Virus record (IMG/VR): IMGVR_UViG_3300032050_006276
Coordinates: 1-24,319 of that record
Length of the DNA: 24,319 nt
Reading direction: 5' to 3' (one strand)
DNA from: a virus
Of this stretch, positions 2,862 to 23,559 are shown piece by piece. Made by a program: the position numbers and the translations under genes. How positions within the stretch are numbered: position 1 is the stretch's first letter; each line of letters begins with the position of its first letter. A model generated the notes under the pieces. The model was given only the letters and a program-made list of their open reading frames with translations, made no database searches and was not told where the DNA came from.

Positions 2862-3180
2862 TGAACTTGGACTAGACGCAGATAATCTAAAGTGGTACCA
2901 ACTTGCTGCATGTATTAATGCAGATATCAATATGTTTTATGATGATTATGAAACAGATAAGCATCTAGCAGCACAAGTTGATGAGATGTGTCTACACTGT
3001 CCAGTAGCCAAACAATGCTATAATGAAGGTGTAAATAATAAAGAGCGCGGGGTCTGGGGAGGAGTTTACCTAGACCTAGGTAGAGTTGATAAAGAGTATA
3101 ATTCTCATAAGACACCAGAAATTTGGAAGAGGCTGAAGTCAATACATGGATCAAGTATTCTACACAAAAGAGATGGCTAA
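2845..3180 (+). CDS. WhiB-like (Wbl) iron-sulfur transcription factor
   Basis: The 111-residue protein shows the four Wbl cysteines that hold a [4Fe-4S] cluster: C23, then C49-x-x-C52 and C58 (MCLHCPVAKQC), followed by the GVWGG turn (69-73) that contacts the sigma factor in this family. The C-terminal basic tail (WKRLKSIHG) would contact DNA. Wbl proteins are restricted to Actinobacteria and their phages, where they tune the housekeeping sigma factor, host development or superinfection. ATG 2845 overlaps the previous gene by 17 nt. A second Wbl gene lies at 20928-21140. Confidence 0.9.
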   Translation: MSNIIDELGLDADNLKWYQLAACINADINMFYDDYETDKHLAAQVDEMCLHCPVAKQCYNEGVNNKERGVWGGVYLDLGRVDKEYNSHKTPEIWKRLKSIHGSSILHKRDG

Positions 3181-13253: not shown

Positions 13254-13276
13254 ACTATACACCCGCCCCCTGACAT
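13254..13276 (-). promoter_or_regulatory. PafBC/RecA-NDp-like promoter P1
   Basis: ATGTCAGGG - N8 - TATAGT on the minus strand. The start ATG 13247 follows after 6 nt (leaderless). The third triplet differs from most copies. Confidence 0.65.
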
Positions 13277-13367
13277 TGTAAAGGAAAATGGTTGGCTGCT
13301 AGGAATTCTGAGGCTCCTGCTTTATTGAACGACTTGGGCGTCCCCTGATAGCCGCACCAACCTACTT

Positions 13368-13559
13368 CTACCTACGGAAATATTGTAGCACTTCTACCTT
13401 TTGGGTGTCAATACCTCCCCGCCGATTAGTTGTCAATACCTCGTCTAATGAACGTTGGATTATGTCGGCTCTCATAGTCTGCCCAAGTTCCTCGGGAATC
13501 TGGACTGTCAGCCTCAAATCCACGACTAGGGTTATAGTTGGGTAGTTCCTCATAGTCAC
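13368..13559 (-). CDS. hypothetical protein overlapping its upstream neighbour
   Basis: A 63-residue ORF (GTG 13559 after GAGGTGCTGA, or ATG 13553) reading TITLVVDLRLTVQIPEELGQ and RADIIQRSLDEVL, a convincing beta-then-helix pattern. It shares 134 nt in another frame with the gene ending at 13426. Both frames look protein-like; either this is a genuine long overlap or one gene is shorter than drawn. Confidence 0.5.
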   Translation of the reverse strand: MTMRNYPTITLVVDLRLTVQIPEELGQTMRADIIQRSLDEVLTTNRRGGIDTQKVEVLQYFRR

Positions 13560-13785
13560 TCAGCACCTCATGTACGATACGGGAAGCCATGTCCCCTGTG
13601 ATGGGATCACCAATGCCATAGCGGTAGTCAATCTCGTTTAGCATAAACCATCCCACCGCAACGCGGTGAAGCATGGATGCAGGAATAGCACCGTCACTCT
13701 TTACCAGATTGGCAAAGTGATACGGGTTCATGAGTCGGTTATACGATGCTTCGATAAATGCCTTGGCTGCTTTCTGCTCTACCAT
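13426..13785 (-). CDS. hypothetical protein
   Basis: A 119-residue protein: helical N-terminal part (KAAKAFIEASYNRLMNPYHF, VAVGWFMLNEIDYRYG, ASRIVHEVLSDYEELP) and a polar C-terminal third that overlaps the next ORF. ATG 13785 follows GAGAGGATATC. A normal TTGCAA-N17-TATAAT promoter lies 27 nt upstream. No family recognised. Confidence 0.65.
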   Translation of the reverse strand: MVEQKAAKAFIEASYNRLMNPYHFANLVKSDGAIPASMLHRVAVGWFMLNEIDYRYGIGDPITGDMASRIVHEVLSDYEELPNYNPSRGFEADSPDSRGTWADYESRHNPTFIRRGIDN

Positions 13786-13811
13786 GATATCCTCTCGTTG
13801 GGGGAACCTAC

Positions 13812-13840
13812 ATTATACGCGAACGTCTGACTCCTTGCAA
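13812..13840 (-). promoter_or_regulatory. sigma70-type promoter
   Basis: TTGCAA - 17 nt - TATAAT on the minus strand, overlapping the end of the 120-residue gene. A GTCAGAC box sits in the spacer 7 nt from TATAAT, so it resembles a hybrid with the PafBC-like set. Confidence 0.6.
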
Positions 13841-14175
13841 GAGGTAACAGACGATGGAGCCTTGATACCTCCTGGGCAATTGCAATACATCATATGCTTG
13901 GAGCAATCGAAACACATAACAAATTCGATAATGTAGCCTTCTTTACTCCGCCCCCGCAGTTTCTTAGGCTTGCGAACAGCAACCTCTGGAGGAAGGTGGG
14001 GGATAACAATGGATGGTTCTACCTCTGGTAGACCATCATCACGCTTACCTGTACGTCCTTCTAGTTTCCCGCCCTCCTCTTGATAATCCTTTAGAGCAGT
14101 CATCATCTCAGCAGTGAAACGTCCACGCTCCCCAACTGTGAATCCCAAACTACGCAAATACTCACGCTTATCCAC
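13813..14175 (-). CDS. Lsr2-tail-like / zinc-knuckle hypothetical protein
   Basis: The 120-residue protein starts DKREYLRSLGFTVGERGRFT, which resembles the small DNA-binding tail of Lsr2 and E3-binding-like domains (R-x-W/Y..G..V..RGR), followed by a basic linker and a Cys cluster (MCFDCSKHMMYCNCPGG) likely to bind zinc. GTG 14175 follows GGAGATGCTAG and overlaps the gene before. DNA binding is inferred. Confidence 0.6.
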   Translation of the reverse strand: MDKREYLRSLGFTVGERGRFTAEMMTALKDYQEEGGKLEGRTGKRDDGLPEVEPSIVIPHLPPEVAVRKPKKLRGRSKEGYIIEFVMCFDCSKHMMYCNCPGGIKAPSSVTSCKESDVRV

Positions 14176-14386
14176 CTAGCATCTCCTCCAATTGTGAATC
14201 CAATTCCCACTCTGCCTGTGTGTGAAAGCGAATAGGATGATATGCCAAACTAAGAACACGGGCAATCTCTAGCATTGGTTCCTTATCCCATGTCCCAAGA
14301 TAGATCTGTTCCTCATCCACCCTGCCCTCCCAGAATATACCTGAGGGGCCACCGTCAATCTCATAGAAATGAATGGTGCTAGACAT
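14168..14386 (-). CDS. hypothetical protein
   Basis: From ATG 14386 (after AAGGAGCATGAGA) the product is 72 residues: MSSTIHFYEIDGGPSGIFWE, then IYLGTWDKEPMLEIARVL and an acidic end. Longer readings run into the neighbouring gene and are not supported. No family recognised. Confidence 0.62.
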   Translation of the reverse strand: MSSTIHFYEIDGGPSGIFWEGRVDEEQIYLGTWDKEPMLEIARVLSLAYHPIRFHTQAEWELDSQLEEMLGG

Positions 14387-14624
14387 TCTCATGCTCCTTG
14401 GGAATAGGAATGATATCAACAAGCGAGTATAGCGTGTTGCGGAGGGTATCGTCAAGTGCCGACTCCTCTGGCATATCATCCCCAGGCCAGAACCAACCAT
14501 AGCCAGTCTCATCAGCCATCTTTCCATCGAACACATGCCCATCAGAAAAGTACGCCTCTACGTCATACTCCATAGACCACTTCTTACGATCTGTGTCATA
14601 GAAAACTACATAGTGAAACTGCAT
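14379..14624 (-). CDS. hypothetical protein
   Basis: An 81-residue acidic, aromatic protein (MQFHYVVFYDTDRKKWSMEY, TGYGWFWPGDDMPEESALDD). ATG 14624 overlaps the previous stop (TAATG). No family recognised. Confidence 0.62.
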   Translation of the reverse strand: MQFHYVVFYDTDRKKWSMEYDVEAYFSDGHVFDGKMADETGYGWFWPGDDMPEESALDDTLRNTLYSLVDIIPIPKEHENV

Positions 14625-14722
14625 TAGATTCCCTCCACCCTACATGTCTCACAGATTCCCTTGTTTAGTTCTAGAATGTAAGACTCTTCATATGAATAAC
14701 AGTCTGAACAGTTATCGAACAT
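14624..14722 (-). CDS. zinc-knuckle micro-protein
   Basis: A 32-residue ORF, MFDNCSDCYSYEES.. ..KGICETCRVEGI: two CxxC pairs about 18 residues apart form a complete zinc ribbon. TGATG and TAATG junctions couple it to its neighbours. Confidence 0.62.
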   Translation of the reverse strand: MFDNCSDCYSYEESYILELNKGICETCRVEGI

Positions 14723-14859
14723 CACGCCCCCTGCATCCTACTATAAATATTGCACACCATTCCATAAGTTAGACAATCAACACAATCACACTCAGAATAG
14801 TCGGGGGTATGCCAAGCAGTACGCTCCATATAATCTAGCAAGTCATCTACTGTATGCAT
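14722..14859 (-). CDS. small Cys-rich hypothetical protein
   Basis: A 45-residue ORF (MHTVDDLLDYMERTAWHTPD, then CDCVDCLTYGMVC) with four closely spaced Cys residues. Start overlaps the stop before it (TAATG). Confidence 0.6.
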   Translation of the reverse strand: MHTVDDLLDYMERTAWHTPDYSECDCVDCLTYGMVCNIYSRMQGA

Positions 14860-14996
14860 TAGACTTCCTCCCCATAGAACGAAACAATCTGATAGCGAAA
14901 CCCATAGTCCTCGTCATGCATAAGACGCTCAGACATTACCCGCTCGGCATCCTCTAGACTATCTGCATCTATCCTGACAGAATAGTTATAGATCAT
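14859..14996 (-). CDS. small hypothetical protein
   Basis: A 45-residue ORF (MIYNYSVRIDADSLEDAERV, ending QIVSFYGEEV) with the beta-alpha-beta pattern of a ferredoxin-like half domain. It begins 2 nt after the stop of the micro-ORF at 14999. Confidence 0.58.
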   Translation of the reverse strand: MIYNYSVRIDADSLEDAERVMSERLMHDEDYGFRYQIVSFYGEEV

Positions 14997-14998
14997 TG

Positions 14999-15076
14999 CT
15001 ACTCCTCAAAGACAATAGAGGTAAACTTACCATCACTAGTAAACTCACCAGTCTCTACATCAAGCCAGATAGCCAT
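14999..15076 (-). CDS. micro-protein
   Basis: A 25-residue ORF, MAIWLDVETGEFTSDG, then KFTSIVFEE. The TAATG junction upstream and the close junction downstream make it part of a gapless operon, which is the main support. Confidence 0.45.
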   Translation of the reverse strand: MAIWLDVETGEFTSDGKFTSIVFEE

Positions 15077-15432
15077 TACTCGTTCTCCCAAAAAGATAGT
15101 TGGCCTGCATACTCCTTGCTCTCAGCATACTGCAACTCAGGGTCCTCGTCAATGAATTCTGGTTCACAGTCCCACCACAATGCTTCCCAAAGCCGCAACT
15201 CATCCAACATACCGCGAGCGGTGATCTCTGCACCGTTAGGAAGAATAAGTGTACGATCTAGAACATCATAGTCTGCGATATCTTGGTCGATGATATTACC
15301 ATCCTTATCCATGATCTGCCAGGGCATAGCATCTTCCACAATCTGATCGAAGAATGTCTGACACGCAATCTGAATGTCAGCAGGAATCGGCGGGTAGAAG
15401 TTAGCGGTCAAGTGCATAGTGATATTAGGCAT
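15076..15432 (-). CDS. hypothetical protein
   Basis: A 118-residue acidic protein: MPNITMHLTANFYPPIPADI, then IMDKDGNIIDQDIADYDVLD, then a Trp-rich C-terminus (RLWEALWWDCEPEF). GGAGGAATTGG precedes the ATG. It overlaps the gene before by 8 nt. No family recognised. Confidence 0.62.
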   Translation of the reverse strand: MPNITMHLTANFYPPIPADIQIACQTFFDQIVEDAMPWQIMDKDGNIIDQDIADYDVLDRTLILPNGAEITARGMLDELRLWEALWWDCEPEFIDEDPELQYAESKEYAGQLSFWENE

Positions 15433-15721
15433 CCAATTCCTCCAGAATTAGACATTGGTCATCTACGGTGTAGTAAAGACCATTGGGCAGTTTGCTATTG
15501 AGAAAGTCTAGTGCATCATCATAGGTCCAGTCAAGGGACTCCAGAACCTCATACAATGTTTCTTCACTTAGCCAATCATTGCGGTAGTCCTCTATGTCCT
15601 TCTTGTATCTCTCCTCGTCAATCTCAAAGCCAGCATCTACCGCCAAGTCGATGACGGCGGTGGTGAAGTCAATAGACGACATATGACTTCCGTCAATAAC
15701 ACAACCAGTACCAGGAAACAT
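15425..15721 (-). CDS. hypothetical acidic protein
   Basis: From ATG 15721 (GGAGGAGGTCTG-ATG, TGATG overlap) the product is 98 residues: MFPGTGCVIDGSHMSSIDFT, helical acidic middle (DEERYKKDIEDYRNDWLSEE), ending DDQCLILEELDA. ATG 15682 is an alternative start. No family recognised. Confidence 0.6.
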   Translation of the reverse strand: MFPGTGCVIDGSHMSSIDFTTAVIDLAVDAGFEIDEERYKKDIEDYRNDWLSEETLYEVLESLDWTYDDALDFLNSKLPNGLYYTVDDQCLILEELDA

Positions 15722-15903
15722 CAGACCTCCTCCACCTGAGCGGCTTTCCAATAATCATGCAGATAATCAGTAGAGATAAGCAACATATCTAGCAACTCGC
15801 CAAGTTGCTCCTTGATCTCGTCCATATCATCAAGGTCAAAGAAGTCGCTATCAAACTCCTGCTCTATAACAAGCGGGAGGGTAATGCGGAAAGTCTTAGT
15901 CAT
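15721..15903 (-). CDS. small acidic hypothetical protein
   Basis: From ATG 15903 (after GGAGGCTGACA) the product is 60 residues: TKTFRITLPLVIEQEFDSDF, then an acidic helix (DEIKEQLGELLDMLL). It resembles the next gene upstream in layout (a beta strand, then acidic helix), so the two may be distant duplicates. Confidence 0.6.
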   Translation of the reverse strand: MTKTFRITLPLVIEQEFDSDFFDLDDMDEIKEQLGELLDMLLISTDYLHDYWKAAQVEEV

Positions 15904-16123
15904 TGTCAGCCTCCACACCCTCAAATCGAAGGATAACCGAAAGGTTATCCATGATGTAGTTTAGCACCTCATGGTCGGCAAAAGAAGCATAGTCCTGACC
16001 CATCTGCACAAGTTCCTCGGGGGTCATGTCAGGGTCCTCATATACCTCATACTCAAACTCAAACTCTAAGAATGATGAATCAAGTTCGTTGATGATCTCG
16101 CCAGTAAAGTGAAAGGTTGCCAT
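15896..16123 (-). CDS. small acidic hypothetical protein
   Basis: From ATG 16123 (after TTGGAGTTAGAC) the product is 75 residues: MATFHFTGEIINELDSSFLE, acidic middle (YEVYEDPDMTPEELVQMG), and a C-terminal strand VILRFEGVEADND. The longer frame to 16168 runs into the preceding gene and is rejected. Confidence 0.6.
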   Translation of the reverse strand: MATFHFTGEIINELDSSFLEFEFEYEVYEDPDMTPEELVQMGQDYASFADHEVLNYIMDNLSVILRFEGVEADND

Positions 16124-16125
16124 GT

Positions 16126-16296
16126 CTAACTCCAATCGTTGGGTCGGAAGCCACCCTGAGATAGCCACTCATCAAGACCATGAAAGAGGTCTACAACCTC
16201 ATCCATAGCCGCATCTGCATCAACCTCCAGAGTACCCCACTCCTCCCATTGGGTCAAGATTTCGCGGAGGCGGGATAGTGCAATATTCGGGTCCAT
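16126..16296 (-). CDS. small conserved-type actinophage protein
   Basis: A 56-residue ORF, MDPNIALSRLREILTQWEEW, then VDLFHGLDEWLSQGGFRP and NDWS. The LDEWLS.GG..P..W ending is common in actinophage mini-proteins. Strong AAAGGAGAAGAA ribosome site. It is the first gene of the leftward operon that runs down to 13813. Confidence 0.68.
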   Translation of the reverse strand: MDPNIALSRLREILTQWEEWGTLEVDADAAMDEVVDLFHGLDEWLSQGGFRPNDWS

Positions 16297-16320
16297 TTCT
16301 TCTCCTTTCTAGGTATATCA

Positions 16321-16349
16321 AGTAAACCGTAGTATGGAGCATAAGTCAA
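16321..16349 (-). promoter_or_regulatory. weak sigma70-like promoter
   Basis: TTGACT - 17 nt - TTTACT on the minus strand, 25 nt before ATG 16296. It does not fit the PafBC-like pattern of the neighbouring units. Low certainty. Confidence 0.35.
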
Positions 16350-16395
16350 TGGGGAAATTTCAGGAAATTCTGGGGATTTTTCTTAATGTTCGTAA

Positions 16396-16444
16396 TTGAC
16401 ATTTTGATAAAGTCGGGCTGCCCCGATTTTCCAGATTTGTCAAG
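16396..16444 (-). terminator. TTGACAA-bounded terminator module M2
   Basis: CTTGACAA (minus strand) begins directly after the tRNA-Trp-like gene. The hairpin TCGGG / CCCGA is followed by CTTTATCAAAATGTCAA and then TTACGAA. It probably ends the tRNA transcript. Confidence 0.65.
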
Positions 16445-16512
16445 CGCCACCCCAAGGAATCGAACCCTGCGCGACAAGGGTTGGAATCTCGTCTGCGCCC
16501 AGCGCGGGTGAC
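16445..16512 (-). tRNA. tRNA-Trp(CCA)-like, short D arm
   Basis: On the minus strand the acceptor arms GTCACCC / GGGTGGC pair over 7 bp, the T arm CAGGG-TTCGATT-CCTTG is complete, and the anticodon loop TTCCAAC gives CCA with T33 and A37. Total length is only 68 nt because the D region is about 5 nt short, and the top anticodon-stem pair is A-C. CCA is not encoded. It may be a reduced but working tRNA or a decaying one. Confidence 0.6.
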
Positions 16513-16517
16513 TTGCA

Positions 16518-16543
16518 GGCAGTTTTACATCATGCCCAGGATG
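16518..16543 (-). repeat. tRNA leader repeat, copy 1
   Basis: A 26-nt element containing CATCCTGGGCATGATG and ending AAACTGCC, 5 nt before the tRNA-Trp-like gene. 24 of 26 bases match the copy before tRNA-Leu (19106-19131). It contains a GGCA / TGCC mini-stem. Confidence 0.65.
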
Positions 16544-16570
16544 TGTGGGGGATATCCCCATCTAAAGGTG

Positions 16571-17569
16571 TTACTTTACTCCCGCGACGGCCTTGACAGC
16601 CGCGAGAATCTTACCCTTCTCTGCATTGGTGACAGGATCGAAACCGCTAGCAGCAGCAAGGACATTCTCCGCACCGCGCTCGCCACGACCCTTGCGGAAC
16701 CAGTCAAGGCGCTCCGTGAGAGCATTGAACGCACCCCAGGCGGTGCCTGAGATCATGTTCGTGGTGTCAGAGCCATAGATCTCCTCCAGAAGATCGACCT
16801 TAGTCTCCCACTTCTTGACAGCACCCTTGGCATCCTTGTCGGGACGAGGGTAGATAGCCTCAACAATCTTGTCGAACTTAGCCTTGGTGATTTCAGTAGC
16901 GATAAGTGCCTGAGCCTCCTTGTCGAACTGGTCAAGGTAGGAGTTGGCGAGTGACAGAGCCTCGCGTGCAGCAGCAACCTTGCCACCCACGGTCTGCGTG
17001 TGGCGAATCTTGAAGGACTGCTTGACGCCAGACAGAGCCATGTTGAGAGTGTTCTGGCACACAACGCGGACGGGAGTGATGGAAGCCTGCACAGCAGTCG
17101 AACCATCGTGCGAGGTATGAACCAGAAGGTAGGACTTCACAACATCCGACACACCGCTAGGATCAAGGACAGTCTCACGCTCCAGCGCGAGGGAACCGAA
17201 CACTACGCGACCCTGCTTGATAGAACCAGCAGTCTCCCAGCGACCACCGTCAAGCAGCGCGTCACCAAAGTAGAACAACTCCTCGTTCTGAAGGACACGG
17301 TAACGCTCGCCCACGGTAGAGAGAACGTCAGTACCCTGACCAAACGGATTGTCGCGGAGGACCATGTAGGAAGGGCTGATGACATTGTAGTCAGCAGGAT
17401 ACGGAACGGCCTCAAGGCGAACGTTCCAACGTGAAAGATAGGCAGCGTCCAGCATCTCCTGCGTGGACTTCTCCTCCGTGAAGACAGTGCCAAGACCATG
17501 CCAAGCGGGTTCGCGGAAAGAAGCGAAAGCCTGCTCGCCGTTCTGACCAATCTCAACTGCGTGTGCCAT
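16571..17569 (-). CDS. DUF932 phage/plasmid-like protein (TIGR03299-type)
   Basis: The 332-residue protein has the family features in order: MAHAVEIGQNGEQAFASFRE and PAWHGLGTVF at the start, ISPSYMVLRDNPFGQGTDVL, VGERYRVLQNEELF, VVKSYLLVHTSHDGSTAVQA, ITPVRVVCQNTLNMAL, and a C-terminal DTTNMISGTAWGAFNALTER. DUF932 proteins are common in phages and plasmids; function is unsettled. It starts after AAGGAGAAACAC and has promoter P2. Its GC content is visibly higher than that of most neighbours, which suggests separate acquisition or high expression. Confidence 0.9.
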   Translation of the reverse strand: MAHAVEIGQNGEQAFASFREPAWHGLGTVFTEEKSTQEMLDAAYLSRWNVRLEAVPYPADYNVISPSYMVLRDNPFGQGTDVLSTVGERYRVLQNEELFYFGDALLDGGRWETAGSIKQGRVVFGSLALERETVLDPSGVSDVVKSYLLVHTSHDGSTAVQASITPVRVVCQNTLNMALSGVKQSFKIRHTQTVGGKVAAAREALSLANSYLDQFDKEAQALIATEITKAKFDKIVEAIYPRPDKDAKGAVKKWETKVDLLEEIYGSDTTNMISGTAWGAFNALTERLDWFRKGRGERGAENVLAAASGFDPVTNAEKGKILAAVKAVAGVK

Positions 17570-17603
17570 GTGTTTCTCCTTAGTCGATTGAACTTATAGA
17601 AGA

Positions 17604-17626
17604 ACTATACACCCTAGGTCTGACAG
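17604..17626 (-). promoter_or_regulatory. PafBC/RecA-NDp-like promoter P2
   Basis: CTGTCAGAC - N8 - TATAGT, 34 nt before the DUF932 start. Confidence 0.7.
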
Positions 17627-17675
17627 TGGCAAGAATATTTCTAAAAAATCTGGGGGAAATTTCTTTCCGTCGTAA

Positions 17676-17765
17676 CTTGACAAATCAAGTTTCGCGGGGC
17701 GGCCCGGAAGTGGTGAGGGAGGGGATTTACCGACCCCCTCCCCCTCTCATCCTATTGGCGGTAAC
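17676..17765 (-). terminator. terminator module M3 with GC-rich hairpin
   Basis: On the minus strand a G-rich / C-rich hairpin (GAGGGGGAGGGG with CCCCTCCCTC, 17718-17749) is followed by GGGCCGCCCC and by AACTTGA-TT-TGTCAAGTT, then TTACGACG. It sits after the tRNA-Glu and structured RNA region and before promoter P2. Confidence 0.55.
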
Positions 17766-17790
17766 CTCTGATGAGTTGCTTGCCTAGTGA

Positions 17791-17855
17791 CCTTGAATCT
17801 CGGCCCTATAAATTTCAGGAGCGACCTGATGAAGATATAGGTGCATTGTCCAAGG
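17791..17855 (-). ncRNA. candidate structured RNA with three nested stems
   Basis: Three nested complementary pairs: CCTTG/CAAGG (17791-17795 with 17851-17855), CCTATA/TATAGG (17805-17810 with 17836-17841) and TCAGG/CCTGA (17815-17819 with 17825-17829, 5-nt loop). It begins 15 nt after tRNA-Glu and precedes module M3. No ORF fits. It could be a processed small RNA or part of the tRNA trailer. Confidence 0.4.
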
Positions 17856-17869
17856 TGCTATAACTAGCG

Positions 17870-17942
17870 TACCCCCAACGGGATTCGAACCCGTGCCGCT
17901 GCCTTGAAAGGGCAGTATCCTAGGCCACTAGATGATGGGGGC
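17870..17942 (-). tRNA. tRNA-Glu(UUC)
   Basis: On the minus strand GCCCCCA pairs with TGGGGGT, D arm with TAGTGGCCTAGGA, anticodon stem CTGCC/GGCAG around loop CTTTCAA (anticodon TTC), and T arm ACGGG-TTCGAAT-CCCGT. 73 nt, discriminator A, no encoded CCA. All arms are regular. Confidence 0.95.
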
Positions 17943-17945
17943 GGG

Positions 17946-18019
17946 TTGGTGAGGTGACTCTGCTATATACGTCAGTAGTTTACAGCCACGCTGTCAAAGA
18001 CTTAGACTGTCCTCACCAA
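17946..18019 (-). repeat. inverted repeat in tRNA-Glu leader
   Basis: TTGGTGAGG (17946-17954) and CCTCACCAA (18011-18019) are perfect 9-bp complements 56 nt apart, with an inner ACAG/CTGT stem. The right arm ends 3 nt before tRNA-Glu. The enclosed region holds TTGACA and TATATA, but at 22-nt spacing. Confidence 0.5.
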
Positions 18020-18029
18020 GTCTATTTAG

Positions 18030-18482
18030 TTAGACTTCCTCTACAGAAATATCCATCTCTTCTTCCATGAAGTCAATCTCCACAGAAGAATTGCTGTAGT
18101 ATCCCTTGCTGATCTCCGCATTCAGTTCATTCTCAAGATCATCAATGTCATAGTCCATGGGGACGGTAACATTGCCAGAGAATCGAACGGTAATCTCTAC
18201 CATGTACTCCCGCTGCAACAGAATATCAAAGTAGCCAGCCAAATCCTCTAGAGTAGCGGAGTCAAAGTCCCATCCGTTATACTTCAGGGCTTCCTCAAAT
18301 GCGTCAATCTGAGCAGCATACTTACGAACCTGCTCGCCAGCATATTCCCAACTCTGAGTCTTCATAGACAACTTATTCTCAAGATCGCGGTACTTGACCT
18401 CCAACTCTTGCATGGTCATAGGATAGGGAGAAGGTGAGGCCAACTCCGCATCGGTAATATCAACAAAACTAGGATCAATCAT
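18030..18482 (-). CDS. hypothetical coiled-coil protein
   Basis: From ATG 18482 (TGATG overlap with the gene before) the product is 150 residues: acidic start, a coiled-coil helix (QELEVKYRDLENKLSMKTQS and on, about 22-70), then a C-terminal beta domain (EITVRFSGNVTVPMDYDIDD, SSVEIDFMEEEMD). The C-terminal part resembles small phage beta proteins; no family named. Confidence 0.65.
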   Translation of the reverse strand: MIDPSFVDITDAELASPSPYPMTMQELEVKYRDLENKLSMKTQSWEYAGEQVRKYAAQIDAFEEALKYNGWDFDSATLEDLAGYFDILLQREYMVEITVRFSGNVTVPMDYDIDDLENELNAEISKGYYSNSSVEIDFMEEEMDISVEEV

Positions 18483-18871
18483 CACACACCCACCATTTCC
18501 TTAGTGTACCTGTGAATAAAGTCCGTTCGTGAGAACTCTACGATCTTATCACCTGGAACATTGCTGCGCCAGTCTGCATCATAGAGCGTTACCGTATCGT
18601 TAGCAAGATCGAACACGGGAATCTTATGCTCGTTATCAGCGAGGGTGTTGATGGTGATACCCCAGCCCAAATCCTGCGAATGGGCATCACCAATCAAATC
18701 AGAGATAATGATGCGGGTAGCGTAGGCATCATCACCAATCCGACCAGCATCCACAACGCGGTCAATAGCCTTAGCAAAACGGGCAAGCATCTGATGCCCT
18801 GCCCAATGTCCATAGACGAAGATGGTGTTGCCGTCAGCCTGCTTGATTCCGAAGTTAGCGCGGTCTCCCAT
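18482..18871 (-). CDS. MGDRANF-type conserved actinophage protein
   Basis: From ATG 18871 (AAAGGGACTCCA-ATG) the product is 129 residues, opening MGDRANFGIKQADGNTIFVY and continuing GHWAGHQMLARFAKAI. This start recurs in phage and actinobacterial hypothetical proteins. The C-terminal half is beta-rich (NEHKIPVFDLANDTVTLYDA). The longer frame to GTG 18910 overlaps promoter P3 and is rejected. Function unknown. Confidence 0.72.
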   Translation of the reverse strand: MGDRANFGIKQADGNTIFVYGHWAGHQMLARFAKAIDRVVDAGRIGDDAYATRIIISDLIGDAHSQDLGWGITINTLADNEHKIPVFDLANDTVTLYDADWRSNVPGDKIVEFSRTDFIHRYTKEMVGV

Positions 18872-18900
18872 TGGAGTCCCTTTCTGTAGTAGGTAGTAGA

Positions 18901-18923
18901 ACTCTATCACATGGGTCTGACAG
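18901..18923 (-). promoter_or_regulatory. PafBC/RecA-NDp-like promoter P3
   Basis: CTGTCAGAC - N8 - TAGAGT, preceded by CTTGACAA. It drives the two-gene unit 18871 to 18030. Confidence 0.7.
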
Positions 18924-19016
18924 TTGTCAAGGGGAAGGTGGGCTGACTTCTTTGCGGTTTACACTCCGATGATCAGTCTTCATGCAGCGCCCAATAATGT
19001 GTCCCACTCTTCCTTG

Positions 19017-19099
19017 TACCCCTGATCGGACTTGAACCGATACTCCGTTATGGAACTTGATTTTGAGTCAAGCGTGTCTGCCAATTCCACCACAGGGGC
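19017..19099 (-). tRNA. tRNA-Leu(CAA)
   Basis: On the minus strand GCCCCTG pairs with CAGGGGT, the D arm reads TGGTGGAATTGGCAGACACG, the anticodon stem CTTGA/TCAAG encloses CTCAAAA (anticodon CAA), there is a long class II variable arm (TTCCATAACGGAGT), and the T arm is ATCGG-TTCAAGT-CCGAT. 83 nt, no encoded CCA. Confidence 0.95.
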
Positions 19100-19105
19100 G
19101 TGGTG

Positions 19106-19131
19106 GGCAGTTTGTCATCATGCCCAGGATG
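19106..19131 (-). repeat. tRNA leader repeat, copy 2
   Basis: The second copy of the element that precedes the tRNA-Trp-like gene, 6 nt before tRNA-Leu. Here the stem GGGCA/TGCCC is 5 bp. Confidence 0.65.
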
Positions 19132-19212
19132 GGAATCTACTAACGATCCCCACATATCCAGGTGGGTTAAGCGAGACAGTTTTAGCGAACATGTCTAGGT
19201 TCGACCAACTGG

Positions 19213-19371
19213 TCAGCGACCAGCAGGGACGCCCTTGCGAAGTGTCTCAAGTGCGGGGGTGGAATCAACAAACTTGCCGTTGATTCGGGTGACGATACGG
19301 GTCTGAGTGCCGTATCGGGTGTTCCAAGTCTCAAGGTATGAGAACTTAGGGGTCTTCTGCTTCTTTGCCAT
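19213..19371 (-). CDS. small basic hypothetical protein
   Basis: A 52-residue ORF, MAKKQKTPKFSYLETWNTRY, then TQTRIVTRINGKFVDSTP, ending RKGVPAGR. Strong AGAAGGAGAAACAA ribosome site. The sequence reads like a small beta protein with a basic start. It follows the gene ending at 19387 in the P4 unit. A longer overlapping frame here (19182-19409) lacks a ribosome site and is rejected. Confidence 0.72.
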   Translation of the reverse strand: MAKKQKTPKFSYLETWNTRYGTQTRIVTRINGKFVDSTPALETLRKGVPAGR

Positions 19372-19386
19372 TTGTTTCTCCTTCTA

Positions 19387-19587
19387 CTAGTAAACGGGAA
19401 GTGCATCAACTACGGCAACAATCTTACCATTTGCCGCCTTTGCAATCAAGTCTGCGCGGGTCTGATTATGAATCGTTATATCGAAATGTGTGTCATCATA
19501 CACATCATACTCCACGCCATGCTTGATCGCTTCAAATACCCCCGCGCCCGTAGACGAGCGGGAGGGAGTACGGATTGTAGCAATCAT
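19387..19587 (-). CDS. hypothetical protein
   Basis: A 66-residue protein: MIATIRTPSRSSTGAGVFEA, DVYDDTHFDITIHNQTRADL, then a VAVVDALPVY end. AGAGGGAAC precedes the ATG and promoter P4 lies 26 nt upstream. No family recognised. Confidence 0.65.
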   Translation of the reverse strand: MIATIRTPSRSSTGAGVFEAIKHGVEYDVYDDTHFDITIHNQTRADLIAKAANGKIVAVVDALPVY

Positions 19588-19612
19588 GTTCCCTCTTTTC
19601 TGTTGTAGTACT

Positions 19613-19635
19613 ACTATAGCCTAGGGGACTGACAG
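19613..19635 (-). promoter_or_regulatory. PafBC/RecA-NDp-like promoter P4
   Basis: CTGTCAGTC - N8 - TATAGT before the 66-residue gene. Confidence 0.68.
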
Positions 19636-19685
19636 CCACAAGGATTATTTCCACGAATTCTGGGAAATTTTCTTAATCGTCGTAA

Positions 19686-19735
19686 TTGACTATTTGAGAT
19701 TTATCGGGCTGGCCCGATTTCTCGGGTTTGTCAAG
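19686..19735 (-). terminator. TTGACAA-bounded terminator module M4
   Basis: ATCGGG-CTGG-CCCGAT (19703-19718) between TTTGTCAAG (19727-19735) and TTGAC; TTACGACG follows on the minus strand. The gene stop at 19737 abuts it. Confidence 0.65.
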
Positions 19736-19736
19736 T

Positions 19737-19838
19737 TTATTTCATAGATTTTATTAGAATCCCTAGGGCAAATGCGACGCATCCTAGCAGACCTATGCCG
19801 ATAAATCCTAGCACACCATACGCGATAATGTCAGTCAT
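19737..19838 (-). CDS. small membrane protein
   Basis: A 33-residue ORF, MTDIIAYGVLGFIGIGLLGC, then VAFALGILIKSMK: almost entirely one membrane segment. GGGAG ribosome site 5 nt upstream, TGATG junction with the micro-ORF before. Last gene of the P5 unit. Confidence 0.6.
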   Translation of the reverse strand: MTDIIAYGVLGFIGIGLLGCVAFALGILIKSMK

Positions 19839-19897
19839 CACACTCCCGAAAAGTCGCGCAGCATTTCCCGAAAGTTATCGAAGGTAACGTCATTCAT
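19838..19897 (-). CDS. micro-ORF
   Basis: A 19-residue ORF (MNDVTFDNFREMLRDFSGV) with a GGAG site 8 nt upstream and TAATG/TGATG junctions at both ends. The size makes it uncertain; the perfect junctions argue for it. Confidence 0.42.
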   Translation of the reverse strand: MNDVTFDNFREMLRDFSGV

Positions 19898-20067
19898 TAG
19901 ATATCTCCATTCTGCTGTGCGATATTGTGTGCAATGGCGGAGCGGTTCCAATCTGTTGCACTTTCTACCGCCTCCCAATCCTCGGGACTCCATGCGCGAG
20001 TGTCGATGATTACTAGACCGTTCGCATTACCAAATGATCCGTCTGCTGCAAAAAATGTTAGCGCCAT
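19897..20067 (-). CDS. small hypothetical protein
   Basis: A 56-residue ORF, MALTFFAADGSFGNANGLVI, then DTRAWSPEDWEAVESATDWN, ending IAQQNGDI. This pattern (beta hairpin, then W.P.DW..) recurs in actinophage mini-proteins. GAGGAAGTGCTAACT-ATG with TAATG coupling to the gene before. Confidence 0.68.
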   Translation of the reverse strand: MALTFFAADGSFGNANGLVIIDTRAWSPEDWEAVESATDWNRSAIAHNIAQQNGDI

Positions 20068-20618
20068 TAGTTAGCACTTCCTCTCACGATAATCCAGATA
20101 AGAGCCTGCGCGGTGCGCGGTGTGATGCCATGATCACTAGCAACCCTGCGAACGGCATCGGAGAGCGCGAGGTATTGACCCTTGTTAGGTGAGTCGGTAT
20201 CCATTCCTGCCGCTCGCATCATCCAAACGTCAATGACAACCGCGTCAGTATCGCCAGCAATAGCGCGAGCGAAAGCGTTAGTCTTGAGACCCTTGAGCGC
20301 ATCGAAGCCAAGGGTCATGGCATCCTGCGCCATGCGAAGGTTATTGCTCAGACCGCTGACGGGCTTATTCATGGAAAAGGCGAGAGCCTTAGCAACGTTG
20401 GACGCCCAACGCTCACGCGGGGAGAAAGCAGAGACAATGCTAGCGCCAATCTCCAAGGATGCGCCCATATTCTCGGCAACGTCCTCCGCAACCTCTTGCG
20501 CCTCAAAGTACCAGACGCTAGCGGCTTCCACCTGAGACATGGTGGCGGTGAGAAGGATATCGGAGAAGGCGAAATACGCGGTATCGGAAAGGGACAGGGT
20601 ATCGGTTGTCGTTGTCAT
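20067..20618 (-). CDS. DUF7178-like phage protein, predicted leaderless
   Basis: The 183-residue protein has features I associate with the phage DUF7178 family: WYFEAQEVAEDVAENMGASL, SIVSAFSPRERWASNVAKAL, GLKTNAFARAIAGDTDAVVI, DVWMMRAAGM. The helical make-up and the KT.AF...I.GD...V.ID.W pattern recall HhH-type DNA glycosylase folds, but no catalytic residue can be assigned. ATG 20618 lies exactly 6 nt after the -10 hexamer of P5, so the mRNA should be leaderless. The GC content is higher than in the rightward block. Confidence 0.75.
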   Translation of the reverse strand: MTTTTDTLSLSDTAYFAFSDILLTATMSQVEAASVWYFEAQEVAEDVAENMGASLEIGASIVSAFSPRERWASNVAKALAFSMNKPVSGLSNNLRMAQDAMTLGFDALKGLKTNAFARAIAGDTDAVVIDVWMMRAAGMDTDSPNKGQYLALSDAVRRVASDHGITPRTAQALIWIIVRGSAN

Positions 20619-20624
20619 GGCTTC

Positions 20625-20647
20625 ACCTTAGCATGGGGGTCTGACAA
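20625..20647 (-). promoter_or_regulatory. PafBC/RecA-NDp-like promoter P5 (leaderless)
   Basis: TTGTCAGAC - N8 - TAAGGT, then 6 nt, then ATG 20618. Confidence 0.75.
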
Positions 20648-20666
20648 TGGAAGGGGGAAACGCCGA

Positions 20667-20813
20667 TTATTCGGTAACGAAACGGTCACGATGCTTGGCC
20701 TTGCGAGAATACTTGGCCTTGTTCTTGTGAGGTTGGGCGGCATTAGAGCGACGACGCTCCAATACGGCGCGGTTATGGTCGGCACTGCGGCGATGATTCA
20801 CACGATTCGACAT
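20667..20813 (-). CDS. very basic small protein, predicted leaderless
   Basis: A 48-residue ORF, MSNRVNHRRSADHNRAVLER, RRSNAAQPHKNKAKYSRKAK, ending HRDRFVTE. It is strongly basic and likely binds nucleic acid. No ribosome site; ATG 20813 is 6 nt after TATCCT of P6. Confidence 0.68.
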   Translation of the reverse strand: MSNRVNHRRSADHNRAVLERRRSNAAQPHKNKAKYSRKAKHRDRFVTE

Positions 20814-20819
20814 AGGAAA

Positions 20820-20842
20820 AGGATAGCATGGGGGTACGACAA
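20820..20842 (-). promoter_or_regulatory. PafBC/RecA-NDp-like promoter P6 (leaderless)
   Basis: TTGTCGTAC - N8 - TATCCT, then 6 nt, then ATG 20813. Confidence 0.68.
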
Positions 20843-20881
20843 TGGGAAGAAAAATCTCGGGGAAAATACCGCGTGTCGTAA

Positions 20882-20932
20882 CTTGACAAATGTCAAAAAG
20901 TCGGGCCGCCCCGCAGGGCGGCTTTTGTCAAG
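20882..20932 (-). terminator. TTGACAA-bounded terminator module M5
   Basis: CTTGACAAA and TTGTCAAG enclose GCCGCCC-CGCA-GGGCGGC (20905-20922), flanked by T runs on both strands, so it could act in both directions. The TGA stop of the second WhiB gene is inside the outer arm. Confidence 0.78.
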
Positions 20933-21140
20933 CCGAAACGAGAAACTTTTTCCTTTCGTCACCCGTGAGTCCACCATAGACATGGGGCTCAAAATCTTCA
21001 TTGGCAATTGCAAATTGGAGACACTTATCTACTACCGCGCACGTTGCACAGATTGCCTTAGCCTTCTCTACACGCGATGCGACTCCTGAGAGAAACAGAT
21101 TAGAGTCTGCATCCTTGCACGCTGCACTATCCTGCCACAT
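20928..21140 (-). CDS. WhiB-like (Wbl) iron-sulfur protein, short form
   Basis: The 70-residue protein MWQDSAACKDADSNLFLSGV has the Wbl cysteines C8, C31-x-x-C34 and C40 (CATCAVVDKC) and the turn VYGGLTGDER in place of G(V/I)WGG. It lacks the basic C-terminal tail of the copy at 2845, so it may work through the sigma factor or as an anti-activator. AAGGAAAAC precedes the ATG; it overlaps the leaderless gene before by 14 nt and is likely co-transcribed from P7. Confidence 0.88.
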   Translation of the reverse strand: MWQDSAACKDADSNLFLSGVASRVEKAKAICATCAVVDKCLQFAIANEDFEPHVYGGLTGDERKKFLVSA

Positions 21141-21273
21141 TGTTTTCCTTCTTCCACTCGTTAGATTCCCGCCGCTTGATGTAGCGACGTTCCTGCTTCT
21201 TGGTCATGCTCCTGCAACATCCGAAGTAGCAGTTAGTCTTGTGCTTCCCCGCTTGCTTCCTGCTTCTCAACAT
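21127..21273 (-). CDS. basic Cys-containing small protein, predicted leaderless
   Basis: A 48-residue ORF, MLRSRKQAGKHKTNCYFGCC, then RSMTKKQERRYIKRRESNEW, ending KKENNVAG. It has three Cys residues and a very basic helix. ATG 21273 is 6 nt after TAGGAT of P7; no ribosome site. It directly precedes WhiB in the same transcript. Confidence 0.65.
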   Translation of the reverse strand: MLRSRKQAGKHKTNCYFGCCRSMTKKQERRYIKRRESNEWKKENNVAG

Positions 21274-21364
21274 AGAAAGATCCTATCATGAGGGACCGAC
21301 AGCGAATCGCATCCTCGCGCATGATCCTATCGAATTCATCGTGACTGATGGGATGGTAGGACAT
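21233..21364 (-). CDS. small hypothetical protein overlapping promoter P7
   Basis: A 43-residue ORF, MSYHPISHDEFDRIMREDAI, then a C-terminal half that reads through promoter P7 and the start of the next gene. The N-terminal half looks protein-like and the TAATG junction supports the start; the C-terminal half may only be constrained by the promoter. Confidence 0.5.
   Translation of the reverse strand: MSYHPISHDEFDRIMREDAIRCRSLMIGSFYVEKQEASGEAQD
21280..21302 (-). promoter_or_regulatory. PafBC/RecA-NDp-like promoter P7 (leaderless)
   Basis: CTGTCGGTC - N8 - TAGGAT, then 6 nt, then ATG 21273. It lies inside the ORF 21233-21364. Confidence 0.66.
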
Positions 21365-21504
21365 TAGTTCTCCTGTGTATCTAGTGCATGGTCGATGGTG
21401 TCAATGATATTGTCGATATAGGCGAACATTCCATTCTTCTGAACCTCCGCCATGATGTATACGACTGTCTCCCAATCTGCGCGGGACATAGAAACTCTAA
21501 TCAT
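21364..21504 (-). CDS. small hypothetical protein
   Basis: A 46-residue helical ORF, MIRVSMSRADWETVVYIMAE, then FAYIDNIIDTIDHALDTQEN. TAATG junctions at both ends. No family recognised. Confidence 0.6.
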   Translation of the reverse strand: MIRVSMSRADWETVVYIMAEVQKNGMFAYIDNIIDTIDHALDTQEN

Positions 21505-21650
21505 TATGCATCACTCCGATCCATGATCTCAAATTCCTCAGGGCTTGCACCCTTGCTAACCTCACGGCTAATCCAAGCCAGTGCCTTGTCACGGTTGCCA
21601 AAGATAAGGGGAAGCGGGTTGCCATCCTTAGCGATGTAGTAAAAGTCCAT
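21504..21650 (-). CDS. small hypothetical protein
   Basis: A 48-residue ORF, MDFYYIAKDGNPLPLIFGNR, then KALAWISREVSKGASPEEFE. The strand-turn-strand-helix layout is common in actinophage mini-proteins. GGGAGAACTG-ATG, TGATG junction. Confidence 0.63.
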   Translation of the reverse strand: MDFYYIAKDGNPLPLIFGNRDKALAWISREVSKGASPEEFEIMDRSDA

Positions 21651-21730
21651 CAGTTCTCCCAAGGGTTAGGGTCAAGGTCAAGGGTAGCCTCCAAGCGGAG
21701 GAAATTCTCGTATAGTTCTTCTTCATTCAT
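21650..21730 (-). CDS. micro-protein, predicted leaderless
   Basis: A 26-residue acidic ORF, MNEEELYENFLRLEATLDLD, ending PNPWEN. ATG 21730 is 6 nt after TAAGGT of P8, and its stop overlaps the next start. The promoter spacing is the main support. Confidence 0.52.
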   Translation of the reverse strand: MNEEELYENFLRLEATLDLDPNPWEN

Positions 21731-21732
21731 GA

Positions 21733-21852
21733 CTACACCTTATCACTAGGGTCTGACAGTCTACGCTCTGCGGCCTTGGCTTGGAGCCATGCCTTCCATG
21801 CCTCGCGCTCCTGCGCGGCGGCGGAATAGTCAATGTATGTCATCTTGTTCAT
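21733..21852 (-). CDS. small Ala/Glu-rich helical protein
   Basis: A 39-residue ORF, MNKMTYIDYSAAAQEREAWK, then AWLQAKAAERRLSDPSDKV. A single long helix is likely. ATG 21852 is 6 nt after TAAGGT of P9 and also overlaps the stop of the zinc gene before it (ATGA). Confidence 0.58.
   Translation of the reverse strand: MNKMTYIDYSAAAQEREAWKAWLQAKAAERRLSDPSDKV
21737..21759 (-). promoter_or_regulatory. PafBC/RecA-NDp-like promoter P8 (leaderless)
   Basis: CTGTCAGAC - N8 - TAAGGT, then 6 nt, then ATG 21730. It overlaps the end of the preceding micro-ORF. Confidence 0.7.
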
Positions 21853-22034
21853 GCGATCACCTTATCATCTAGGTCTGACAGGCAATCACAGTCATAGGTC
21901 ACCTTGAGGTAGTCCTCAAAGGCTTCCACCGTCATGATGCCTTTGTATTCGTGGCAAGTGAAGCACACGCGGGAATCCAGAGCGATCTCGTTATCGCAGA
22001 AGCAGCAGACCAAGTGGTCATGGGCAGTATCCAT
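21849..22034 (-). CDS. zinc-ribbon protein
   Basis: A 61-residue protein with CCFCDNEIALDSRVCFTCHE (paired CxxC knuckles about 14 residues apart), then an acidic helix and CDCLSDLDDKVIA. AGAAGGTTAGAT-ATG. It is the first gene after P10. Confidence 0.7.
   Translation of the reverse strand: MDTAHDHLVCCFCDNEIALDSRVCFTCHEYKGIMTVEAFEDYLKVTYDCDCLSDLDDKVIA
21859..21881 (-). promoter_or_regulatory. PafBC/RecA-NDp-like promoter P9 (leaderless)
   Basis: CTGTCAGAC - N8 - TAAGGT, then 6 nt, then ATG 21852. It lies inside the end of the preceding zinc-protein gene. Confidence 0.68.
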
Positions 22035-22058
22035 ATCTAACCTTCTTTCTATACCCTG

Positions 22059-22081
22059 ACCCTATCACGGGGGTCTGACAT
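22059..22081 (-). promoter_or_regulatory. PafBC/RecA-NDp-like promoter P10
   Basis: ATGTCAGAC - N8 - TAGGGT, 24 nt before ATG 22034 (leadered). Confidence 0.7.
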
Positions 22082-22154
22082 TCACCTAATCGAGAATGCA
22101 TACAAATCGGACAATTTCAAGAAAAATTTTGTGGCGTATTTCACAGCGTCGTAA

Positions 22155-22204
22155 CTTGACAAAACCAAAAAGTCGGGGCGGCCCGATTTTAACTAATTGT
22201 CAAG
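22155..22204 (-). terminator. TTGACAA-bounded terminator module M6
   Basis: CTTGACAA and TTGTCAAG enclose TCGGG-GCGG-CCCGA, followed on the minus strand by CTTTTTGGTTTTG and TTACGACG. The end of the gene at 22193 (LDN-stop) lies in the outer arm. Confidence 0.75.
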
Positions 22205-22393
22205 TCTATTTCGCAATTCGATTTCGATATTTTCTAGAGAATCCTCTATGTATTCCAGCATGGCCTGATCACGCTCACCATCTGACGATGCCCACATGCG
22301 ATTGATTCGACTCTGAATCTGTCCCACCTCGTTATACATCATTTTGCAATTCAGGATGAATGCATCGGGTCTATTGACTTTCACATTACTCAC
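22193..22393 (-). CDS. hypothetical helical protein
   Basis: From GTG 22393 (after GGAGGGCGCG, GTGA overlap) the product is 66 residues: MSNVKVNRPDAFILNCKMMY, GQIQSRINRMWASSDGERDQ, then an acidic coiled helix ending RNRLDN. Its stop lies in module M6. No family recognised. Confidence 0.62.
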   Translation of the reverse strand: MSNVKVNRPDAFILNCKMMYNEVGQIQSRINRMWASSDGERDQAMLEYIEDSLENIEIELRNRLDN

Positions 22394-22659
22394 CGCGCCC
22401 TCCAAGCCTCAAGGAATGATGCGAACATCTCTAGCGGAACATACGCATACACACCGCCAGAGTGGTATGCAGCAAACTCTTCAAGGATCGACTCTTGCCA
22501 TTCCCCATCCTTGAAGAACGCAAGTTCGACAGAGTAGGGGAAGCGACACATAGCGCCATCACCAATAGCGACAGAGATCTCATCTGCGAGAGGGTGCTGA
22601 ATCTCAGCGGCGGTAGCATTGACGATTGAATAGTCCCCATAGGAACGAACCTTTACCAT
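22390..22659 (-). CDS. hypothetical protein
   Basis: From ATG 22659 (GGGAGGCTTCTA-ATG, TAATG overlap) the product is 89 residues: MVKVRSYGDYSIVNATAAEI, VELAFFKDGEWQESILEEFA, then VYAYVPLEMFASFLEAW. A beta-rich first half and a helical end. The longer frame to 22773 is read through another gene and rejected. Confidence 0.65.
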   Translation of the reverse strand: MVKVRSYGDYSIVNATAAEIQHPLADEISVAIGDGAMCRFPYSVELAFFKDGEWQESILEEFAAYHSGGVYAYVPLEMFASFLEAWRAR

Positions 22660-22754
22660 TAGAAGCCTCCCTCTATTCCACCAACGATAGCCATGGCAAT
22701 AAGAATACCGCCAACGATTACGAAAGACAAGAGATGTTGCGCGAAAGTTCTCAC
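22659..22754 (-). CDS. small membrane protein
   Basis: A 31-residue ORF with GTG start: MRTFAQHLLSFVIVGGILIA, then MAIVGGIEGGF, one membrane segment. GTGA and TAATG junctions at its ends make a gapless series. Confidence 0.55.
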   Translation of the reverse strand: MRTFAQHLLSFVIVGGILIAMAIVGGIEGGF

Positions 22755-23032
22755 AGTTCCAACCCCATTTCACGGAGGCCCAGCATCAACTCGGCCTGTA
22801 TTGCAGGACTATTCATGTCCTCTGGCTTGAGCCACTTTACCATAGCACTACCACGGGACTGCATGGTATTGCCATGCGTGTCGGTTGCAAGGAACCAATC
22901 ATCCTCTAGCGGTTCGATGCAGAACCACCTAGTATGGAGGATGCCCCTATCATTCTCTCCAAGGATACCCTCTACAAATGGGGGACACTCGCGCATGGGA
23001 GTGGTCACGATACGGTCTACTGAATCAATCAT
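22751..23032 (-). CDS. hypothetical protein
   Basis: A 93-residue protein: MIDSVDRIVTTPMRECPPFV, HTRWFCIEPLEDDWFLATDT, SAMVKWLKPEDMNSPAIQAE, ending LREMGLEL. A beta-rich core and a helical tail. TAATG junction with the gene before. No family recognised. Confidence 0.65.
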   Translation of the reverse strand: MIDSVDRIVTTPMRECPPFVEGILGENDRGILHTRWFCIEPLEDDWFLATDTHGNTMQSRGSAMVKWLKPEDMNSPAIQAELMLGLREMGLEL

Positions 23033-23250
23033 TAGAACCCCCAGGACTTAGCGTTAGCGTTATGATCGACAACGATGGGGTAAAGCGCTCCACGCTTAGA
23101 CTCCATGTAGACCAGACCCTTCTCATCACCCTTTAGGCTACGGGCGAAGTGGAGTGCGTCGTCCTTGCTCATCCAACGGGTGAACGGGGAACGGGAGACA
23201 TTGCCATTGAACGATGTAGAGACATGCACTACACGGTATCCCTTGAACAT
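23032..23250 (-). CDS. hypothetical protein
   Basis: A 72-residue protein: MFKGYRVVHVSTSFNGNVSR, SPFTRWMSKDDALHFARSLK, then GLVYMESKRGALYPIVVDHN. The pattern of three strands around a helix is common in phage mini-proteins. AAAGGAAAGAA-ATG; first gene of the P11 unit. Confidence 0.66.
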   Translation of the reverse strand: MFKGYRVVHVSTSFNGNVSRSPFTRWMSKDDALHFARSLKGDEKGLVYMESKRGALYPIVVDHNANAKSWGF

Positions 23251-23271
23251 TTCTTTCCTTTCTTTCCCCCT

Positions 23272-23294
23272 ATCCTAGCAGGGGGGTCTGACAA
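23272..23294 (-). promoter_or_regulatory. PafBC/RecA-NDp-like promoter P11
   Basis: TTGTCAGAC - N8 - TAGGAT, about 21 nt before ATG 23250 (leadered). This is the closest copy to the mycobacterial consensus. Confidence 0.75.
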
Positions 23295-23352
23295 TGGTGT
23301 GGCCTAGGGCTCATCCCTTTCGGGCTTATTTGCCTAGGAGGTATTTAGTTAT
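23295..23352 (-). ncRNA. candidate small RNA from promoter P12
   Basis: P12 is not followed by a credible gene. The transcript would hold CCTAGGC ... GCCCTAGG arms around CCC-GAAA-GGG, a GNRA-capped hairpin, before reaching P11. At the position where other units have ATG 6 nt after the -10, this one has ATA. Confidence 0.35.
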
Positions 23353-23358
23353 AGAGAC

Positions 23359-23381
23359 ACCCTACCATGGGGGTCTGACAG
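23359..23381 (-). promoter_or_regulatory. PafBC/RecA-NDp-like promoter P12
   Basis: CTGTCAGAC - N8 - TAGGGT. It begins directly after the stop of the 41-residue zinc gene. Confidence 0.68.
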
Positions 23382-23507
23382 TCACTTGCCCGTGACTGCC
23401 TTAGCCGCACACCCATAGCATGGGGTGAGCGTCTGAACCTGGCGGTAACAGGTACGAACATTGCTACACACCTGGCATGTGTAGGTGTAAAGAGTACGCT
23501 TTCTCAT
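23382..23507 (-). CDS. zinc-knuckle mini-protein
   Basis: A 41-residue ORF, MRKRTLYTYTCQVCSNVRTC, then YRQVQTLTPCYGCAAKAVTG. CQVC and CYGC pairs 14 residues apart form a zinc ribbon with a basic start. Perfect AAAGGAGGTGTAGAG ribosome site and promoter P13. Confidence 0.75.
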   Translation of the reverse strand: MRKRTLYTYTCQVCSNVRTCYRQVQTLTPCYGCAAKAVTGK

Positions 23508-23536
23508 CTCTACACCTCCTTTCTTTCTATGCCCTA

Positions 23537-23559
23537 AGGCTATCATGGGGGTCTGACAT
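23537..23559 (-). promoter_or_regulatory. PafBC/RecA-NDp-like promoter P13
   Basis: ATGTCAGAC - N8 - TAGCCT, 29 nt before ATG 23507 (leadered). Confidence 0.68.

Follow-up and report, generated by a model that had tools for sequence, protein, structure and literature searches.

Putative PafBC-class DNA-damage promoters in the leftward gene block of an uncultured actinophage

Background

In mycobacteria and other Actinobacteria, repair genes are driven by a LexA-independent class of DNA-damage promoter, termed RecA-NDp (recA P1), which has the consensus tTGTCRgtg-8nt-TAnnnT and is activated by PafBC (PMC5656591; PMC8223512; PMC6789036). PafBC enables RNA polymerase (RNAP) containing σA to work at promoters with a motif at -26, is activated by single-stranded (ss) DNA, and requires RNAP in order to bind its promoter (PMC11804915). 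Some basal transcription in M. smegmatis is also supported by PafBC (PMC5656591). Here we describe an array of 13 boxes of this type in a 24,319-nucleotide stretch of viral DNA (the whole of positions 1 to 24,319 of IMG/VR record IMGVR_UViG_3300032050_006276; hereafter, the window), where they lie on the minus strand before genes of a leftward block. The reading that we favor, at a probability of roughly 0.78, is that the phage block carries promoters of this actinobacterial damage class, which are read by the host RNAP-σA together with host PafBC.

Other phages are connected to the SOS response of their host by LexA boxes and in this way, as is proposed here, use a host damage regulator for phage genes. 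However, LexA is a repressor and the phages that it controls are mostly temperate, whereas PafBC is an activator and the relatives of the window yield no tyrosine integrase match. That a phage can read the damage state of its host is thus already known in principle; the use of PafBC promoters would be the new aspect, and no report of phages using this activator pathway or its promoters was found in the literature searched.

Geometry of the promoter array

A first-pass annotation of the window, made from the letters alone, had proposed 13 minus-strand promoters of the PafBC/RecA-NDp type, and a pattern scan recovers every one of them at its exact coordinates in the right half (Table 1). All 13 have the form TGTCR-N11-TAnnnT with exactly 11 nt between the two elements, which equals the spacing of the published consensus. 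In 12 of them the box reads TGTCRG, the sole exception being the one at 20820 (TGTCGT). For the same half and strand, 2000 dinucleotide shuffles gave a mean of 0.31 matches and a maximum of 3. The spacing is strict, since on this strand TGTCRG with N9 or N11 has 0 matches and all spacings of 6-17 except 10 give 3 in total. The annotation's statement that the rightward block contains no such boxes also holds: TGTCRG-N10-TAnnnT has 0 matches on either strand of the left half, and 0 on the plus strand of the right half. Two plus-strand matches to TGTCA-N11-TAnnnT, at 19729 and 20613, are probably chance occurrences.

Counted from the -10 element, the predicted transcription start (+1) is an A at all 13 sites and is preceded by a pyrimidine at 12. 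Relative to this position TAnnnT occupies -12 to -7 and TGTCR -28 to -24, with TGTC at -28 in every case, so that the element is centered near -26. At six sites an ATG begins at the predicted +1, and the mRNA would therefore be leaderless; at six others, the start codon lies 15-28 nt beyond the predicted +1. Each box precedes a gene or unit, as had been claimed, with the qualification that those at 23359 and 23272 serve a single gene in tandem.

The window boxes thus share with PafBC promoters the TGTCR element, the 11 nt to TAnnnT, the placement relative to +1 and the usual lack of a -35 element, the -35 hexamers being poor in ten of the 13. They differ in driving a phage gene block rather than repair genes and in the triplet that follows TGTCR, where acc (gACC) mostly stands in place of the weak, lower-case gtg known from mycobacteria; this triplet also varies among the recA boxes of candidate hosts. 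A TGTCR element near -26, a fixed spacing, a mostly absent consensus -35 and kin boxes at bacterial damage genes (below) all support an assignment of the boxes to this class.

Conservation in related viruses

The motif search was extended to 79 related viral loci that had been collected by means of the DUF932 gene of the block, and the array recurs in this set: 500 boxes lie on the strand of the gene block and 38 on the opposite strand, versus 20 and 15 for a reversed-pattern control. A spacing of N11 accounts for 746 matches (a count in which L129, a locus of the window phage itself, is included), versus 91-228 for the other spacings of 5-18. An ATG is present at +1 in 62 of 446 family boxes, compared with 2-7 at each of the neighboring positions that have any. 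Eight relatives of 84-118 kb carry 9-13 boxes per genome, which fall mostly within one block of ~5-13 kb and on one strand, the few others being dispersed. The array is thus carried by a group of uncultured actinophages, mostly of freshwater type; because no phage record matches the window at the DNA level, this taxonomy is based on proteins.

Given such numbers, the array might mainly serve as a decoy, which would sequester PafBC and leave less of it for the repair genes of the host, since a whole actinobacterial genome of 1.3-1.5 Mb has just 7-16 boxes (control, 3-19). However, these whole-genome counts, made with a loose pattern, are near background, and only located promoters were therefore taken as evidence. 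Moreover, the phage sites are placed exactly at start codons, with a Shine-Dalgarno sequence or a leaderless ATG, which argues that they work as promoters, and PafBC that lacks RNAP would not be held by them (PMC11804915). We regard the decoy as highly improbable.

The family profile consists of a weak -35 TTG at 17 bp, TGTCAG, an extended -10 element (TGnTAnnnT) and an A at +1. Much of this could also describe plain host σA promoters of the extended -10 type, constitutive from the start of infection, in which TGTCAG is only a preference of the spacer. Most window sites do contain the TGn of an extended -10, TTG is present at -35 in 175 of 441 family boxes, and a good -35 is found in three of the 13 window sites and in the DUF932 promoters of many relatives. 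Yet when 11 orthologous DUF932 promoters are aligned (alignment A1), TGTCAG and the -35 TTG are invariant while the flanks diverge; the spacing is fixed, and the same box marks bacterial damage genes. Consequently, σA promoters without any activator are a quite unlikely explanation.

In four distant relatives (L145, L146, L151 and L159) the DUF932 promoter is a hybrid with a full TTGACA -35, a TGTCAG box and a good -10, and in L143 and L144 it is a canonical -35/-10 promoter. A TTGACA-n-TGTCAA palindrome was considered as an operator and set aside, because it is confined to those promoters, a minority, that have a good -35 and so is not the conserved feature.

Among cultured phages, ten actinophages with homologues of the DUF932 or DUF7178 protein have box counts at background. 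These include Streptomyces BE-type phages (Stanwilliamsviridae, e.g. Jay2Jay and Coruscant), which resemble the window in having a DUF932 homologue within a leftward block of small genes, there near the genome end, but which have no array. Like the window, the published freshwater (lake) actinophage DSL-LC01 (OQ999401) has WhiB and HslV-like genes, and it encodes a homologue of the 18482-18871 protein, but it has no boxes in the 30 kb examined.

The same box at bacterial repair genes

A pattern built from the phage boxes was used to scan 84,980 bacterial species genomes, one per species (257 Gb). Of the 40 matches obtained, 13 lie immediately before recognizable repair or nuclease genes: recN, radA (twice), ssb, DUF222-HNH genes (three), RecB-like nuclease/helicase genes (two), and genes for an XPB-like helicase, a PD-(D/E)XK nuclease, a uracil-glycosylase (UDG) fusion and a WGR protein. 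The start codon is 28-29 nt from the start of the box in ten cases, as in the phage, and at one locus (L248) the box runs directly into a LexA-type palindrome. The assignment to the PafBC/RecA-NDp class, which had been proposed from likeness to the consensus, is thereby strengthened beyond resemblance, because a pattern derived from phage falls before bacterial repair genes and the same box precedes recA in actinobacteria that encode PafB and PafC.

In Deltaproteobacteria/Myxococcales, TGTCAGACCC boxes precede recN, ssb and XPB-like helicase genes at four loci (L225, L246, L214 and L270) of metagenome-assembled genomes, and these genomes encode a fused, tandem-WYL PafBC-like protein that matches PafBC in the PDB. 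Thus, a PafBC-type damage response may be present outside Actinobacteria. M. xanthus has candidate PafB/PafC homologues (MXAN_1359/1360).

Candidate hosts

The candidate hosts are small-genome (1.3-1.5 Mb) Actinomycetes, similar in size and G+C content to Nanopelagicales. In these bacteria a box is present before recA, with an SOS box directly behind it, and boxes are also found before carD, DUF6504 and PD-(D/E)XK nuclease genes. Of 19 further genomes inspected, 11 have a box with exact spacing upstream of recA, and just one has the pattern there at a nearby wrong spacing. Adjacent WYL open reading frames (ORFs) representing PafB and PafC were found in all 12 small-genome actinobacteria searched, which are candidate hosts only; the PafB/PafC pair of genome G145 matches the solved PafBC chains 7p5x, 9fnd and 6sj9.

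Boxes in these genomes also cluster in one variable stretch (414-457 kb in G145, 422-457 kb in G079 and 476-503 kb in G219; L309-L318). Cytosine methylases and an MmeI-type restriction enzyme are among the products of box-driven genes there and in other genomes (further loci, L321 and L322), and in many cases the box and the start codon are 28-29 nt apart.

Which factor reads the boxes

As an alternative to PafBC, the first-pass annotation had suggested that the promoters evolved for a factor of the phage's own. A search for a phage PafBC-like regulator found no WYL domain in 39 related phage records, and no σ70 region 2 was found in 18 (17 relatives and the window); these records are fragments, so the absences are not proof. 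A WYL regulator or sigma factor encoded by the phage was rejected on this basis, and the alternative has become less likely. The factor could instead be a WhiB-like or unrecognized small DNA-binding protein that reads TGTCAGACC, the dominant phage form of the box, within a geometry taken over from host promoters. WhiB proteins bind σA, a WhiB-like gene sits within the block, and the ACC variant is dominant in the phages (ACC 95, TGG 34 and TCC 31 among the triplets after the box in relatives). However, the ACC form is also found before bacterial repair genes, and the nearest cultured phages, which have the DUF932 or DUF7178 homologues, lack the boxes. Together with the searches above, this makes an activator supplied by the phage unlikely.

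Several other observations weigh against a dependence on host PafBC. The 40 matches in bacterial genomes are close to a chance number (estimated at ~30), and for about half of them no clear repair gene follows; the evidence therefore lies in the gene context and not in the match count. Five relatives (L140-L144) are nearly free of boxes, with 0-1 per locus. Host recA boxes are mostly of the TGTCAGTGG, CCC or TGC form versus the TGTCAGACC of the phages, a difference that would allow for a reader modified by the phage. Because the -35 hexamer is fair or good in three window boxes and many relatives' DUF932 promoters carry TTGACA, some boxes may fire without PafBC. Finally, the phage tRNA-Glu is only ~85-88% identical to the tRNA-Glu genes of many actinobacteria, and host assignment by this gene was abandoned as uninformative, so that the actinobacteria named above are no more than candidate hosts.

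If the boxes are read by host PafBC, as we favor, ssDNA in the infected cell would activate the protein, which would then adapt the host RNAP-σA to start at the boxes, often giving leaderless mRNAs. Replication of the phage or breakage of the host DNA could itself supply the ssDNA or damage signal, and the gene block would thereby be tied to this signal. Since PafBC responds to ssDNA, the block should be turned on once infection makes ssDNA, or immediately in a host that is already damaged; because PafBC supports basal transcription in M. smegmatis, early use of the block is also possible. We infer this action of PafBC on the phage copies, its timing and which actinobacterium serves as the host. 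The block appears to be early or host-takeover in character. Control through lysogeny was dropped as a candidate, with no tyrosine integrase match in the 17 relatives or the window (again fragmentary records), and the best reading is that these phages are virulent.

A broader proposal, to which we give about even odds, is that virulent actinophages of a large lineage make a whole gene block conditional on ssDNA, with host PafBC as a sensor of the infection stage, and that some restriction-modification genes of the hosts are driven by promoters of this class as well. In such a scheme, ssDNA-activated PafBC would adapt σA, so that a set of leaderless early or middle transcripts is made. If correct, the block would be a testable example of phage genes under sigma adaptation, the boxes would provide a promoter-level marker for this uncultured actinophage group, and it would become understandable that a single ssDNA-sensing switch might be common to phage genes and restriction genes of the host.

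Genes and other features of the window

The boxes and the recognizable genes of the block are given in Table 1; nine of the small ORFs in the block have no PHROG match.

Table 1. Promoter boxes and leftward genes of the window (+1, predicted transcription start; aa, amino acids)
Feature	Position	Strand	Remarks
Box TGTCAGGGGGCGGGTGTATAGT	13254..13275	-	-35 TTTACA at 17 bp; +1 13247, A of ATG; leaderless 75-aa ORF 13247-13020
Box TGTCAGACCTAGGGTGTATAGT	17604..17625	-	-35 TTGCCA at 17 bp; +1 17597; upstream of DUF932 gene
Box TGTCAGACCCATGTGATAGAGT	18901..18922	-	TTGACA 18 bp from -10; +1 18894; before 129-aa ORF 18871-18482
Box TGTCAGTCCCCTAGGCTATAGT	19613..19634	-	+1 19606; before 66-aa ORF 19587-19387
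Box TGTCAGACCCCCATGCTAAGGT	20625..20646	-	+1 20618, A of DUF7178 gene ATG; leaderless
Box TGTCGTACCCCCATGCTATCCT, without TGTCRG	20820..20841	-	+1 20813, A of ATG; leaderless 48-aa ORF
Box TGTCGGTCCCTCATGATAGGAT	21280..21301	-	+1 21273, A of ATG; leaderless 48-aa ORF, upstream of WhiB-like gene
Box TGTCAGACCCTAGTGATAAGGT	21737..21758	-	+1 21730, A of ATG; leaderless 26-aa ORF
Box TGTCAGACCTAGATGATAAGGT	21859..21880	-	+1 21852, A of ATG; leaderless 39-aa ORF
Box TGTCAGACCCCCGTGATAGGGT	22059..22080	-	+1 22052; before 61-aa ORF 22034-21849
Box TGTCAGACCCCCCTGCTAGGAT	23272..23293	-	+1 23265; proximal promoter of 72-aa ORF 23250-23032
Box TGTCAGACCCCCATGGTAGGGT	23359..23380	-	+1 23352; distal tandem promoter of 72-aa ORF 23250-23032, 102 nt from ORF start
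Box TGTCAGACCCCCATGATAGCCT	23537..23558	-	+1 23530; before 41-aa ORF 23507-23382
DUF932 protein, 332 aa	16571..17569	-	Block marker gene; PF06067 2.1e-51; phrog_1221
phrog_31860-type protein	18482..18871	-	Homologues in Streptomyces phages
DUF7178 protein, 183 aa	20067..20618	-	PF23802 3.8e-34
WhiB-like protein, 70 aa	20928..21140	-	PF02467; WhiB relatives in PDB

A repeated element, TTTGTCAAGTTACGAC followed by AAATTTCCCC-AGATTTTT, is present on the minus strand of the window at 17683, 20889 and 22162, with a partial copy near 19680. It lies 50-100 bp upstream of the boxes at 17604, 20820 and 22059, and two of its three copies are directly behind terminator-like hairpins. The rightward block contains a gene for an HslV-family peptidase (4383-4916, plus strand; phrog_1040) and a second WhiB-like gene (2845-3180, plus strand).

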